A stretch of DNA of 15,658 nucleotides from Verrucomicrobiales bacterium (GTDB lineage: Bacteria > Verrucomicrobiota > Verrucomicrobiia > Verrucomicrobiales > DEV007). The notes under the pieces are model-generated. The model searched no databases and had not been told where the DNA came from. It saw only the letters and a program-made list of their open reading frames with translations. The position numbers were made by a program, and so were the translations under genes. Shown here in pieces: positions 11,466 to 14,008 of this stretch. Location of the stretch: NCBI GenBank assembly GCA_007123695.1, contig SLGN01000058.1, positions 1 to 15,658 of the forward strand. Reading direction: 5' to 3'. Numbering within the stretch: the stretch's first letter is position 1; every line of letters begins with the position of its first letter.

Positions 11466-11509
11466 CTAATCGACGCGAAGAAGTTCTCACCCATCCGCGG
11501 CGGTTTGGC

Positions 11510-11517
11510 TACCTTTT
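11510..11517 (+). promoter_or_regulatory. Possible -7/-10 box of the aldolase operon
   Basis: TACCTTTT lies 5 bases before the ATG at 11523 and resembles TACGTTTC ahead of the rhodanese gene. If functional, the transcript would start at or next to the start codon. No convincing upstream -35 element was recognised, so this is tentative. Confidence 0.25.
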
Positions 11518-11522
11518 TCTCC

Positions 11523-12605
11523 ATGATCACCGATCCCGCCGAACTGAAGCCCTCCACCACCTGGGAGGAGACCGTCTGGGCCCACACCCCCGAGGATGCC
11601 CTCGTCGACCATGTGTCCAAGCCCCGGCTCTGCGTCGCGACCCTGCTGCCCTTCCGCGAGGGCCGGCCCGACTGGGAGGGCTTCGAAAACAGCATCCGCT
11701 GGATGATCTCCTGCGCCGAGGCCGCCGGGGTCGAGATCGCCTTCGTCCTCAACGCCGACACCGGCTACATCTTCCAGCTCGACCTGGAGCTCTACGGCGA
11801 GGTCATCCGCCGCTTCCGCGCCGCCTTTCCCGAGCCGACCATCATCTGCGGCTCGACCGCGGTGGGCGCCTCGGGCGACGCCTTCCAGCCCGAATGGTAC
11901 CGCCCCCACTTCGAGATCGCGCAGAGTTTCGAGAACGTCGAGGTGATGATCATGACCTCGAAGCTGCTCAACGAGCTCGGCACCGAGAAGCGCCGCGACG
12001 CCTATTTCGAGATCGCCGAGATGCTGACCGTGCCCGGCATCGTCCACGCCCTCGAGCCGGCCTTCGTGCCTTGGGCGACTCCCTACGGTCCCTGGCTGCT
12101 CCACGAACTCGCCAATCACCCGAAGTTCGTCGGCGGCAAGATCTCGACTCTCGACGAGCCGCATTTTCTTTATTGGGCTTCGATGTGCCGCGACCTCGGG
12201 CTCGACTTCGCGCCTCACAGCGGCGACGACTTCGGCATCGCTTCGGCGATCAAAATGGGCCTGCCTTTGCTGATCGGCGCCGGCGTCTCGGCCTGTCCGC
12301 TGATCTGCGAGGCGAAGCGGATGTGGACGAGCGAGCCGCTCGACACGCGAGTCTACAAGCTCTTCGAAGCCTTCCAGTCGCTCGAGGACGCCGTCTTCCG
12401 CCTCGACGCGAAGGGCAGCGCCGCCGCCTACAAGCACAGCACTGCGCATGTCCTGAAGCTGCTCGGACTGATAGCCTCGAGCGAGATCCATCCCGACTGT
12501 CCCGACCTTCGTCCCGAGGATGAGGCGGAAAGGATGAAGGAAGCTCTCGTGAGGCCGCTTCGGATCGCCGAGCGGCTGGGGATCGAGGGTTTTCGGCTGG
12601 CGTAG
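11523..12605 (+). CDS. Dihydrodipicolinate synthase (DapA)-superfamily lyase/aldolase, probably catabolic
   Basis: A 360-residue TIM-barrel class I aldolase or lyase. The barrel begins at RLCVATLLPFREGRPDWEGF (35-54). Lys206 in KFVGGKISTLDEP is the expected Schiff-base lysine. The usual GTTGE motif is replaced by NADTGYIF (77-84), keeping only one of the two threonines. C-terminal features are DDFGIASAIKMGLPLLIGAGVSACP (235-259) and YKHSTAHVLKLLGLI (303-317). The divergence from DapA at the Thr-Thr pair, the extra N-terminal 30 residues and the AraC/isomerase context argue against lysine biosynthesis. A keto-deoxy-sugar-acid aldolase or dehydratase in sugar or uronate breakdown is more plausible, but the substrate is unknown. 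It lacks a ribosome binding motif. An S23 cassette separates it from its likely operon partner at 13190. Confidence 0.85.
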   Translation: MITDPAELKPSTTWEETVWAHTPEDALVDHVSKPRLCVATLLPFREGRPDWEGFENSIRWMISCAEAAGVEIAFVLNADTGYIFQLDLELYGEVIRRFRAAFPEPTIICGSTAVGASGDAFQPEWYRPHFEIAQSFENVEVMIMTSKLLNELGTEKRRDAYFEIAEMLTVPGIVHALEPAFVPWATPYGPWLLHELANHPKFVGGKISTLDEPHFLYWASMCRDLGLDFAPHSGDDFGIASAIKMGLPLLIGAGVSACPLICEAKRMWTSEPLDTRVYKLFEAFQSLEDAVFRLDAKGSAAAYKHSTAHVLKLLGLIASSEIHPDCPDLRPEDEAERMKEALVRPLRIAERLGIEGFRLA

Positions 12606-12616
12606 TCGGGGTTGGA

Positions 12617-12674
12617 ATCGAAATCGGGATCGAAATCGGGATCGAAATCGGGGGTCGAAATCGAAATCGGAATC
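12617..12674. repeat. Left arm of 12-bp tandem repeats (ATCGAAATCGGG)n flanking the S23 gene
   Basis: Three perfect units ATCGAAATCGGG occupy 12617-12652, followed by a degenerate tract (12655-12674) made of the same GAAATCG core. It begins 11 bases after the stop of the aldolase gene. Bases 12618-12652 are perfectly complementary to 13095-13129, and TCGAAATCGA (12655-12664) can pair with 13084-13093 after a small bulge. Confidence 0.95.
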
Positions 12675-12698
12675 ACCTCACCGCTACTTACCGCACCG

Positions 12699-13166
12699 AT
12701 GTCCCTCGGACACGAAAAGCTCGATGTCTACCGCCTGGCGATCCGATACGTCGCCTGGGTATTCGAGCATTCCGAAAGATTGACAGGCATGCATCGCCAT
12801 GCCCGTGACCAATGGCTGCGAGCAAGTCAATCAATCCCGCTGAACATCGCTGAAGGAAATGGAAAGGCATCGGAAGCGGATCGGAGGAAATATTTCGAAA
12901 TCGCCCGTGGCTCGGCGCTGGAGTGTGCTGCGATCCAGGATGTGTTGGTGGTCGGCAAGGGGCTGGATGAGCTCGTGAGCCGCAAGCGCAAAGTGGAGCT
13001 GGATCGCATGAGCGCGATGCTAAGTCGCTTGGGGAAAAGGGGGTATCTTGTGGAGGAAGACCGGGCGGGATATGGGTTGGACGTCGATTTCGATCCCGAT
13101 TTCGATCCCGATTTCGATCCCGATTTCGAGAGGGCGGAAGGAGAGGGGAACGGGGCTCGGCATTGA
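12699..13166 (+). CDS. Four-helix-bundle protein of the S23 / 23S rRNA intervening-sequence protein (IVP) family
   Basis: A 155-residue small helical protein. The family core is clear: HEKLDVYRLAIRYVAWVFEHSERL (5-28), then SQSIPLNIAEGNGKASEADRRKYFEIARGSALECAAIQDVL (43-83), the highly conserved central signature. Relatives are encoded in 23S rRNA intervening sequences and include the Avd accessory protein of diversity-generating retroelements; their role is probably nucleic-acid binding as a pentameric barrel, but the cellular function is generally unknown. The C-terminal tail repeats Asp-Phe-Asp-Pro (about 128-144), which is the translated right arm of the 12-bp repeat. Start 12699 is chosen at the family N-terminus; a TTG at 12612 would translate the left arm as a Ser-Lys-Ser-Gly repeat. 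Base composition is unlike its neighbours (27 G+C of 60 in 12841-12900). It sits between two genes of a probable sugar operon. Confidence 0.9.
   Translation: MSLGHEKLDVYRLAIRYVAWVFEHSERLTGMHRHARDQWLRASQSIPLNIAEGNGKASEADRRKYFEIARGSALECAAIQDVLVVGKGLDELVSRKRKVELDRMSAMLSRLGKRGYLVEEDRAGYGLDVDFDPDFDPDFDPDFERAEGEGNGARH
13085..13130. repeat. Right arm of inverted 12-bp tandem repeats (CCCGATTTCGAT)n inside the 3' end of the S23 gene
   Basis: About 3.8 units of CCCGATTTCGAT, the reverse complement of the left-arm unit, run from 13085 to 13130; the last base differs. Because 12 is a multiple of 3 the array stays in frame and encodes DFDP repeats. Together with the left arm it can form a stem of 35 uninterrupted base pairs (45 with one bulge) enclosing most of the S23 gene, including its start codon. 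Confidence 0.95.
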
Positions 13167-13189
13167 GGGAAACGATCACCGAAGATTTT

Positions 13190-14008
13190 ATGAATCCGCA
13201 TCCGAAACTCTGCATCCACACCATCACCACCAAGCCCTGGTCGGTCGAGACGGCGATCGGCAAATACGCCGAGGCCGGCATTGGCGGCATCACTGTCTGG
13301 CGGCAGTGGCTCGAGGGCCGCGACCCGGAAAAGATCGGCGAGCGCATCCGCGCGGCGGGCTTGGAGGCGGTCTCGGTCTGCCGGGGCGGCTTCTTTCCCG
13401 CGCCCACGGCGGCGGAGCGCGCCACCGCCATCGAGGACAACCGCCAAGCCATCCGCGAGGCCGCCGCGCTGGGGGCGCCGCTCGTGGTGCTCGTCTGCGG
13501 GGCCGTTCCCGGTCAACCGCTTGCGGAATCGCGCCAGCAGATCGCCGACGGCATCGCCGCCGTCCTGCCCCTCGCCGAGGAGCTGAACGTCCGTCTCGGG
13601 ATCGAGCCGCTGCATCCGATGTACGCCGACGACCGCAGCGCGATCAACACCATGGCCTCGGCCAACGAGGTCTGCGACCGCCTCGACCACCCGCTCGTCG
13701 GCATCGCGGCGGACGTCTACCACATCTGGTGGGATCCCGACCTCGCGGAGCAGATCGCCCTGACCGGGGAGAAGAACCGCCTCTTCGCCTTCCACCTCTG
13801 CGACTGGCTCACCCCCACGGTGGACCTGCTCAACGACCGCGGACTGATGGGCGAAGGCTGCATCGACCTGAAGGGCATCCGCGCCATGGTCGAGGCGGCT
13901 GGGTTCAACGGGTATCACGAGGTGGAGATTTTTTCGAACCGCTGGTGGGCCGTGGACCAGGATGAGTTCCTTGCGAAGATCGTGAGAGCCTACGGCGAGC
14001 ATTGTTAG
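13190..14008 (+). CDS. Sugar phosphate isomerase/epimerase-like TIM-barrel protein (AP-endonuclease family 2 fold)
   Basis: A 272-residue xylose-isomerase-like TIM-barrel enzyme. These proteins bind a divalent metal and interconvert ketoses, inositol derivatives or related sugars. Likely metal ligands lie at the ends of successive strands: Glu139 in LGIEPLHP, Asp175 with His178 in GIAADVYHIWWD, His202 in FAFHLCDW, and Glu246 in GYHEVEIFS. The ATG at 13190 begins directly before the first strand (KLCIHTIT); a TTG at 13163 would overlap the S23 stop. GAAGA lies close to the ATG but is a weak ribosome binding site. Its probable operon partner is the DapA-type gene, with the AraC regulator upstream. 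The actual sugar is not deducible. The S23 cassette interrupts the expected close spacing of the two enzymes. Confidence 0.9.
   Translation: MNPHPKLCIHTITTKPWSVETAIGKYAEAGIGGITVWRQWLEGRDPEKIGERIRAAGLEAVSVCRGGFFPAPTAAERATAIEDNRQAIREAAALGAPLVVLVCGAVPGQPLAESRQQIADGIAAVLPLAEELNVRLGIEPLHPMYADDRSAINTMASANEVCDRLDHPLVGIAADVYHIWWDPDLAEQIALTGEKNRLFAFHLCDWLTPTVDLLNDRGLMGEGCIDLKGIRAMVEAAGFNGYHEVEIFSNRWWAVDQDEFLAKIVRAYGEHC

Follow-up and report, generated by a model that had tools for sequence, protein, structure and literature searches.

An S23-family gene between inverted short-repeat arrays at an operon junction: probably one copy of a widespread mobile-like cassette

The window, a stretch of 15,658 nucleotides from a Verrucomicrobiales bacterium (contig 15 of the source assembly, which is 79.8% complete), holds a gene of the S23 family between two genes read in the same direction, together with arrays of a short repeat that face each other at the two ends of this gene. 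The features are:

11523..12605, + strand, upstream operon gene; start codon inferred, no Pfam family in a scan of 11487-12602
12617..12674, + strand, 5' array of the unit ATCGAAATCGGG (six-base period), 4.8 copies; exact pairing core 12618-12652
12699..13166, + strand, S23 / 23S_rRNA_IVP gene, 155 aa from its ATG (PF05635, TIGR02436)
13085..13129, + strand, 3' array, the reverse complement of the 5' unit ATCGAAATCGGG, 3.8 copies with 100% matches
13190..14008, + strand, downstream operon gene encoding a xylose-isomerase-like TIM barrel (PF01261); start codon inferred, scan from 13163

The upstream gene stops 11 nt before the 5' array. The first-pass annotation, made from the sequence alone, had described 35 perfectly complementary base pairs enclosing an S23 gene of lower G+C than its surroundings, and both statements were borne out. 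Over 35 nt, 12618-12652 is the exact reverse complement of 13095-13129, and the match extends to 12618-12664 and 13084-13129 when one gap and one mismatch are allowed. Scanned from an upstream TTG at 12612, the gene scored 66.4 bits against PF05635 (cut-off 33.8) and 59.9 bits against TIGR02436 (cut-off 24). G+C was 0.573 in 12699-13084, compared with 0.655 and 0.676 in the two neighbouring genes and 0.684 in the window. Tandem Repeats Finder assigned a period of 12 to both arrays, over 12617-12674 and 13085-13129, whereas the true period of the 12-nt unit is six bases (ATCGAA/ATCGGG), like that of its closest S23 relatives. The arms reached a local-alignment score of 82, and a chance origin was rejected since dinucleotide-preserving shuffling of the flanks of 92 S23 loci, 20 times each (1840 in all), gave no score above 32. 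The 3' array is translated within the S23 reading frame as (DFDP)n and gives the protein an Asp-rich tail. Compared with the protein encoded at 12699-13166, a 147-aa version of it (P0001) has eight tail residues fewer, corresponding to two 12-nt units of the 3' array, which reflects either variation in copy number or a difference in assembly. A search of 12400-13400 for sigma-70-like promoters found none.

PF05635 was the sole Pfam match of the cassette gene. The Pfam scan detected no known transposase or recombinase in the cassette, and no Y1 (RAYT) transposase between the repeats. A four-helix bundle is predicted with confidence for the protein (mean pLDDT 86; helices 9-25, 30-54, 59-85 and 91-112), and Foldseek matched this model to the solved members 2gsc and 2rld with a probability of 1.00 and rmsd values of 1.5 and about 2 Å. 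At least 7921 homologues of the window protein were counted among 7998 scored candidates, among the matches listed. In a set of 193 S23 sequences with a mean identity of 35%, repeated loci still included, E75 was present in 193, E52 in 191, Q38 in 190 and N49 in 188; S45 and R41 were near-invariant as well. Among these residues are those at the R, S, N and E positions of GxxRxxxSxxxNxxE, a motif described for S23 in PMC3936711. The S23 protein of Xanthomonas is described as a homopentamer, and S23 proteins as having no known function, in PMC4990558. Tandem S23 domains within one open frame of about 250-270 aa were also seen (G108 C77:18615-19337, G222 C29:15409-16134 and others).

Seven matches to PF05635 were present in the source genome. 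By eye, five of the six others carried short-repeat arrays: AGTTTTC at two loci, which we take from the sequences of the neighbouring genes to be sucC|sucD and metK|ahcY, ATTTGAG at a third, an array of eight-base units close to the end of a contig, and one longer inverted repeat. The sixth fell below the cut-off and had no array. S23 matches occurred in 42 of the 56 genomes searched, the source genome included; most of the assemblies are fragmentary. From these we assembled 94 S23 places, seven from the source genome and 87 from the genome search, taken in rank order down to G004:C11; lower ranks were left out except for three places on stretches already retrieved, and five places at contig edges were skipped (G001:C206, G019:C570, G008:C36:68, G007:C70, G038:C137). 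Flank statistics cover 92 of the 94, two having been dropped for short flanks. The arm score is a local alignment of the 5' flank with the reverse-complemented 3' flank, and the controls were open frames picked greedily from the same regions with a minimum length of 300 nt; some of these frames are perhaps no genes.

An arm score of at least 24 was reached by 83 of 92 S23 genes versus 19 of 389 control frames, the latter indicating a background of short arrays in these genomes. At a threshold of 30 the counts were 65 of 92 and 5 of 389. The median inverted score was 35.5 at S23 loci and 17 at control frames, and the median for direct repeats was likewise 17. Nine of the 92 genes had no clear arms. 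When each 5' arm was compared with all 3' partners, its own ranked first of 92 for 54 loci and among the top five for 78. Base identity within the arms was 0.609, 0.584 and 0.541 at lags of 7, 14 and 21, versus about 0.25 inside the S23 gene. Nine sites were tested for the fit of the 5' arm to the 3' arms of relatives, and at three of them this fit was about as good as that to its own 3' arm, with scores of 36.5 against 33.1 at cysD|cysN, 30.0 against 34.8 at the YGRLLVSRLK site, and 31.3 against 31.3 at the FRACANYGPLYGKY site. Two regions stood out in other respects: one (L125; G039 C1:2566000-2585000) carries four S23 matches on a single strand within 12 kb, one of them with an internal stop, and in another (L127, G016) the S23 genes lie amid longer GC-rich repeats with direct scores above the inverted ones, unlike most loci.

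The repeat unit follows the S23 clade. Across 82 loci scoring at least 24, two G016 loci left out, arm similarity between pairs at different sites correlated with S23 similarity (r 0.32, with 0 of 2000 permutations as high), the rise being seen above about half of the maximal S23 score and not below. The window protein has nine relatives that are 72-80% identical and belong to other families of the phylum. Among those looked at by eye the neighbouring genes mostly differ, with L326 and L329 sharing a site. Arms of the window clade consist of ATCGNN units in close relatives and of other six-base units in farther ones. The period was 6 at all 24 classifiable loci among 28 window-like ones; it was 7 at 55 of 69 classifiable other relatives, and mostly 7-8 bases outside the six-base clade. 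On a quick tree of 185 proteins the 26 six-base loci formed one clade with support 100, and the trait changed once, versus a mean of 24.1 changes after shuffling (0 of 500 shuffles; repeated loci removed, 24.3 before their removal), the 45 of 185 rows with unclear period being uncounted. Left out were an S23 whose frame has an internal stop, the match of the source genome that fell below the cut-off, and the masked L322. Since the window-like set was chosen by similarity and the alignment has 118 columns, the tree shows the coupling of clade and repeat rather than its cause.

The position of these genes is as regular as their flanks. With genes called by an in-house hexamer gene caller, both neighbours were co-directional with S23 at 78 of 94 places versus 72 of 167 short control genes (at most 900 nt), and two of the exceptions (G015:C60, G008:C24) turned out to be miscalls, actually cysD|S23|cysN junctions. 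Median gaps to the neighbours were 54 and 48 nt at the 78 co-directional loci. Judged by the sequences of the neighbouring genes, the sites are presumably sucC|sucD, cysD|cysN, pheS|pheT, metK|ahcY, gyrB|gyrA and nuoI|nuoJ, among others. One and the same S23 clade, together with its arms, can occupy more than one site, as it does at metK|ahcY and sucC|sucD. The combination of S23 gene, inverted short-repeat arrays and operon junction is a general anatomy. The first-pass annotation had read the window feature as an IVS-like S23 cassette living between protein genes, and had proposed to look for inverted arrays beside the S23 genes of relatives and to compare empty with occupied sites. Relatives do carry flanking inverted arrays, as counted in the 83 of 92 already quoted, and the junctions, described below, proved to be occupied in some genomes and empty in others.

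At the window junction, 26 loci had a clear orthologue of the downstream gene (of 30 returned, 26 were used after removal of a fragment and of three weak paralogues), and the cassette was present in the source genome only. Both genes were adjacent and the cassette was absent in 18 of 18 such relatives examined; in seven others the upstream gene was not adjacent. The empty gap, measured to the first aligned residue instead of the start codon, was 1-125 nt in 16 relatives, and the two genes run together in the other two (L295, L303). A vertically fixed cassette at this locus is therefore rejected.

At cysD|cysN, 27 CysN loci of the genus were surveyed, weaker paralogues left out: ten were occupied (the S23 of L172 in G003 included), 16 empty with gaps of 65-192 nt, and one unreadable. 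Array-like remnants were seen by eye in at least three empty junctions (L178, L187, L190). The eight S23 proteins grouped at this junction belong to one clade, and some sites, such as this one, look vertically inherited on that basis. At pheS|pheT (n=29), S23 of a clade A was present in five genomes and of a clade B in three, a RAYT-like gene in two, and 15 junctions were empty; of the remainder, two were cut at a clade-B-like array and two unreadable. The S23 frame of G002 was identified by eye. Clades A and B are distantly related and occur in different species. We take the frames in L374 and L380 (G004, G006) to be Y1-transposase-like (RAYT), by eye from their motifs; they have long inverted ends and lie where relatives hold S23 cassettes. 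With clades A and B and a Y1-transposase-like gene at one junction, this site has been filled more than once. In the empty pheS|pheT junctions L368, L369, L365, L363, L366 and L359, solo CCTTTTACC-type arrays resemble by eye the 3' arm of the cysD|cysN clade and are possibly scars of a third cassette type. No target-site duplication or movement was seen; by eye, the empty junctions are too divergent between species to fix a boundary.

The arrays are found in many bacterial groups. In one named S23 clade an arm score of at least 24 was reached at 65 of 75 readable loci of 79, four having been dropped for short flanks, and at 55 of 65 once the ten loci identical to records among the 94 were removed; as 23-24% of mismatched arm pairs within this clade reach the same score, it says little there about own-arm pairing. 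Scoring loci included some from Planctomycetaceae, Bacteroidota genera, Neomarinimicrobiota, Chlamydiota, Thermodesulfobacteriota and CPR groups. Inverted arrays also flanked all eight S23 loci read on cyanobacterial plasmids (8 of 30 matching records), with scores of 29-59; at one (L356) direct repeats outscored them with 129. The plasmid sites included cas10/cmr2|cmr3 (annotated), cas6|cas4, an AAA ATPase|ParB pair and a conjugation operon, and the neighbours pointed the opposite way at one of the eight.

The window repeat also occurs apart from S23. A 24-nt array pattern had 42 placements in the source genome (up to 3 mismatches, overlaps counted) versus none for the reversed pattern. Several ATCGAAATCGGG arrays bound, in inverted orientation, a conserved core of about 126 nt that contains no gene:

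C262:11475-11680, C269:2010-2200, C457:6520-6770, C538, C669, C721 and C181 of G000, gene-less ATCGAAATCGGG-array elements

The core had six full-length and further partial matches in the source genome and no match in 32 other genomes of the genus. A recent burst of short elements that share their ends with the S23 cassette therefore seems to be present in this lineage.

Taken together, the window feature is probably one copy of a widespread mobile-like cassette that consists of an S23 gene and inverted arrays, mostly of 6-8 nt units, and sits in the gap between co-transcribed genes. The cassette is most likely selfish or semi-selfish and recognised by its own S23 protein. Because the sequence and period of the repeat are clade-specific, the protein most likely recognises its own arrays. 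It would do so at both ends and take part in pairing or in movement. Expression may come from the transcript of the host operon, and the cassette would be tolerated owing to its position between reading frames. Slippage of the repeats and copying between the arms may renew the arrays quickly while their complementarity is kept.

A possible alternative, on which we have some doubt, is an intervening sequence of mRNA: once the arms had paired in the transcript of the operon, the stem would be cut by RNase III, possibly with the help of S23, and the cassette would be released as in 23S rRNA. The homology of S23 and the predicted RNA fold of the window, with its long terminal stem (z -4.49), are consistent with it, as is the co-orientation with the operon at 78 of 94 places. 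Furthermore, the 5' arms are C-poor and G-rich, with more G than C in 74 of 82, so that pairing within an arm is avoided. S23 genes have also been reported in insertions of 16S and 23S rRNA in CPR bacteria (PMC11270868). The mismatches between arms, however, showed no wobble tolerance: 131 were of the G·U type versus 179 of the A·C type at 162 loci (142 versus 195 before repeated loci were removed). Without a G·U excess, selection for RNA pairing is not supported, although mutational bias could mask a G·U preference; the excision or protection of an RNA stem proposed in the first-pass annotation thus gains no support from this test. RNAduplex energies separated own from foreign pairs weakly, with 23 of 82 own pairs below the 5% level of foreign ones, in what is a blunt test, since it uses whole flanks and is dominated by pairing outside the arms.

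More doubtful is a stronger version of the cassette reading, in which S23 itself would be the enzyme that moves the cassette or makes the arrays, in what would be a new class of minimal mobile element. An oligomer of four-helix bundles would read the 6-8 nt repeat, build or homogenise the inverted arrays and insert the cassette in operon junctions, with E75, E52, Q38, N49, R41 and S45 as its working site; rRNA IVSs, and possibly Avd, would be offshoots.

It is unlikely that the cassette is a resident operon regulator, with S23 binding the arrays to couple or uncouple the expression of neighbouring subunits and kept for the benefit of the host. The sites do often lie between what we take to be subunits of one complex (sucC|sucD, cysD|cysN, pheS|pheT, gyrB|gyrA, nuoI|nuoJ and the annotated cas10/cmr2|cmr3), and the polar residues E75, E52, Q38 and N49 are strongly conserved. 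Presence is patchy within one genus, however; a single junction can hold S23 genes of distant clades or a RAYT-like gene, and the same clade with its arms is found at unrelated operons. Conserved operons presumably offer the commonest stable co-transcribed gaps in any case.

Passive carriage of S23 by another system, such as a Y1 transposase (RAYT-like) family, appears quite improbable. That family is abundant in the source genome, with 40 Y1_Tnp (PF01797) matches of which one alone is long and strong, and by eye RAYT-like genes with inverted ends of their own occur at pheS|pheT in two relatives. Those ends differ from the S23 arrays, though, and no ATCGAAATCGGG array was listed when 30 of the 40 Y1_Tnp loci were scanned for tandem repeats, which disfavours these repeats as ends of the Y1 transposase elements of the genome. 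Plain coincidence, with intergenic arrays growing everywhere by slippage, turning mirror-like by template switching and S23 there by accident, would fit the solo arrays of the window unit elsewhere in the genome and the 19 of 389 control frames, and is very improbable in view of the enrichment around S23 genes and of a repeat period and sequence that follow the S23 clade.

The shared anatomy of operon junction, inverted arrays and clade-specific period gives a very common protein family a testable role and suggests a reason for the presence of S23 in rRNA genes and cas operons. It predicts a code between protein and repeat, and could explain where some of the 6-8 nt arrays between bacterial genes come from. 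We found no prior description of the combination of S23, inverted arrays and junction in the open-licence PMC literature (preprints excluded). This anatomy is undescribed in the literature searched, though a report of S23 genes in cas operons dates from 2013.

In contrast to insertion sequences and transposons, the cassette showed no encoded transposase or recombinase in the Pfam scan. A REPtron or REPIN system comprises one gene with inverted repeat ends and gene-less short elements that share these ends, at extragenic sites. The cassette gene likewise has inverted ends, and gene-less elements with ATCGAAATCGGG arrays are dispersed in the source genome; its gene, however, is S23 instead of a Y1 transposase, and its ends consist of tandem arrays, with a unit that varies from clade to clade. 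REPtrons and REPINs with their RAYT transposase are treated in PMC3116915.

Foldseek also matched the window model to Avd of diversity-generating retroelements (4dwl, 8ub7 and others; probability 0.97-1.00, TMq 0.50-0.59, E at least 0.1), more weakly than to 2gsc and 2rld. No reverse transcriptase (PF00078) was matched in the source genome, at 79.8% completeness, or in G053 (99% complete, nine S23 matches). From the former, incomplete assembly, a standing DGR-like partner seems not to be required for maintenance here. PF05635 has been described as resembling Avd (PMC10053308).

Short tandem units between genes, mostly of 7 nt, are a further likeness. Cyanobacterial STRR are heptanucleotide tandem arrays between genes. 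The intergenic TAACTGA heptanucleotide arrays of Beggiatoaceae are, as described, direct repeats with one indirect exception, and the terms 'four helix bundle' and 'S23' are absent from the main text of that report (PMC4679880). S23 genes in cas operons, for example between cmr3 and cmr2, were read in 2013 as pointing to a CRISPR-Cas-associated function (PMC3936711), whereas S23 at cmr2|cmr3 here looks like one more array cassette lodged in an operon junction.

Intervening sequences with an S23 ORF in 23S rRNA are reported for Leptospira and Coxiella, among others, with a length of 428 nt in Coxiella (PMC4990558). Like these, the window cassette has an S23-family ORF, a length of a few hundred nt, a patchy distribution and complementary ends capable of forming a stem, here with 35 exact pairs and a terminal stem in the predicted fold. 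Unlike them, it lies between two protein genes and outside any rRNA gene, its arms are arrays of mostly 6-8 nt repeats, and such cassettes occur in several copies per genome.
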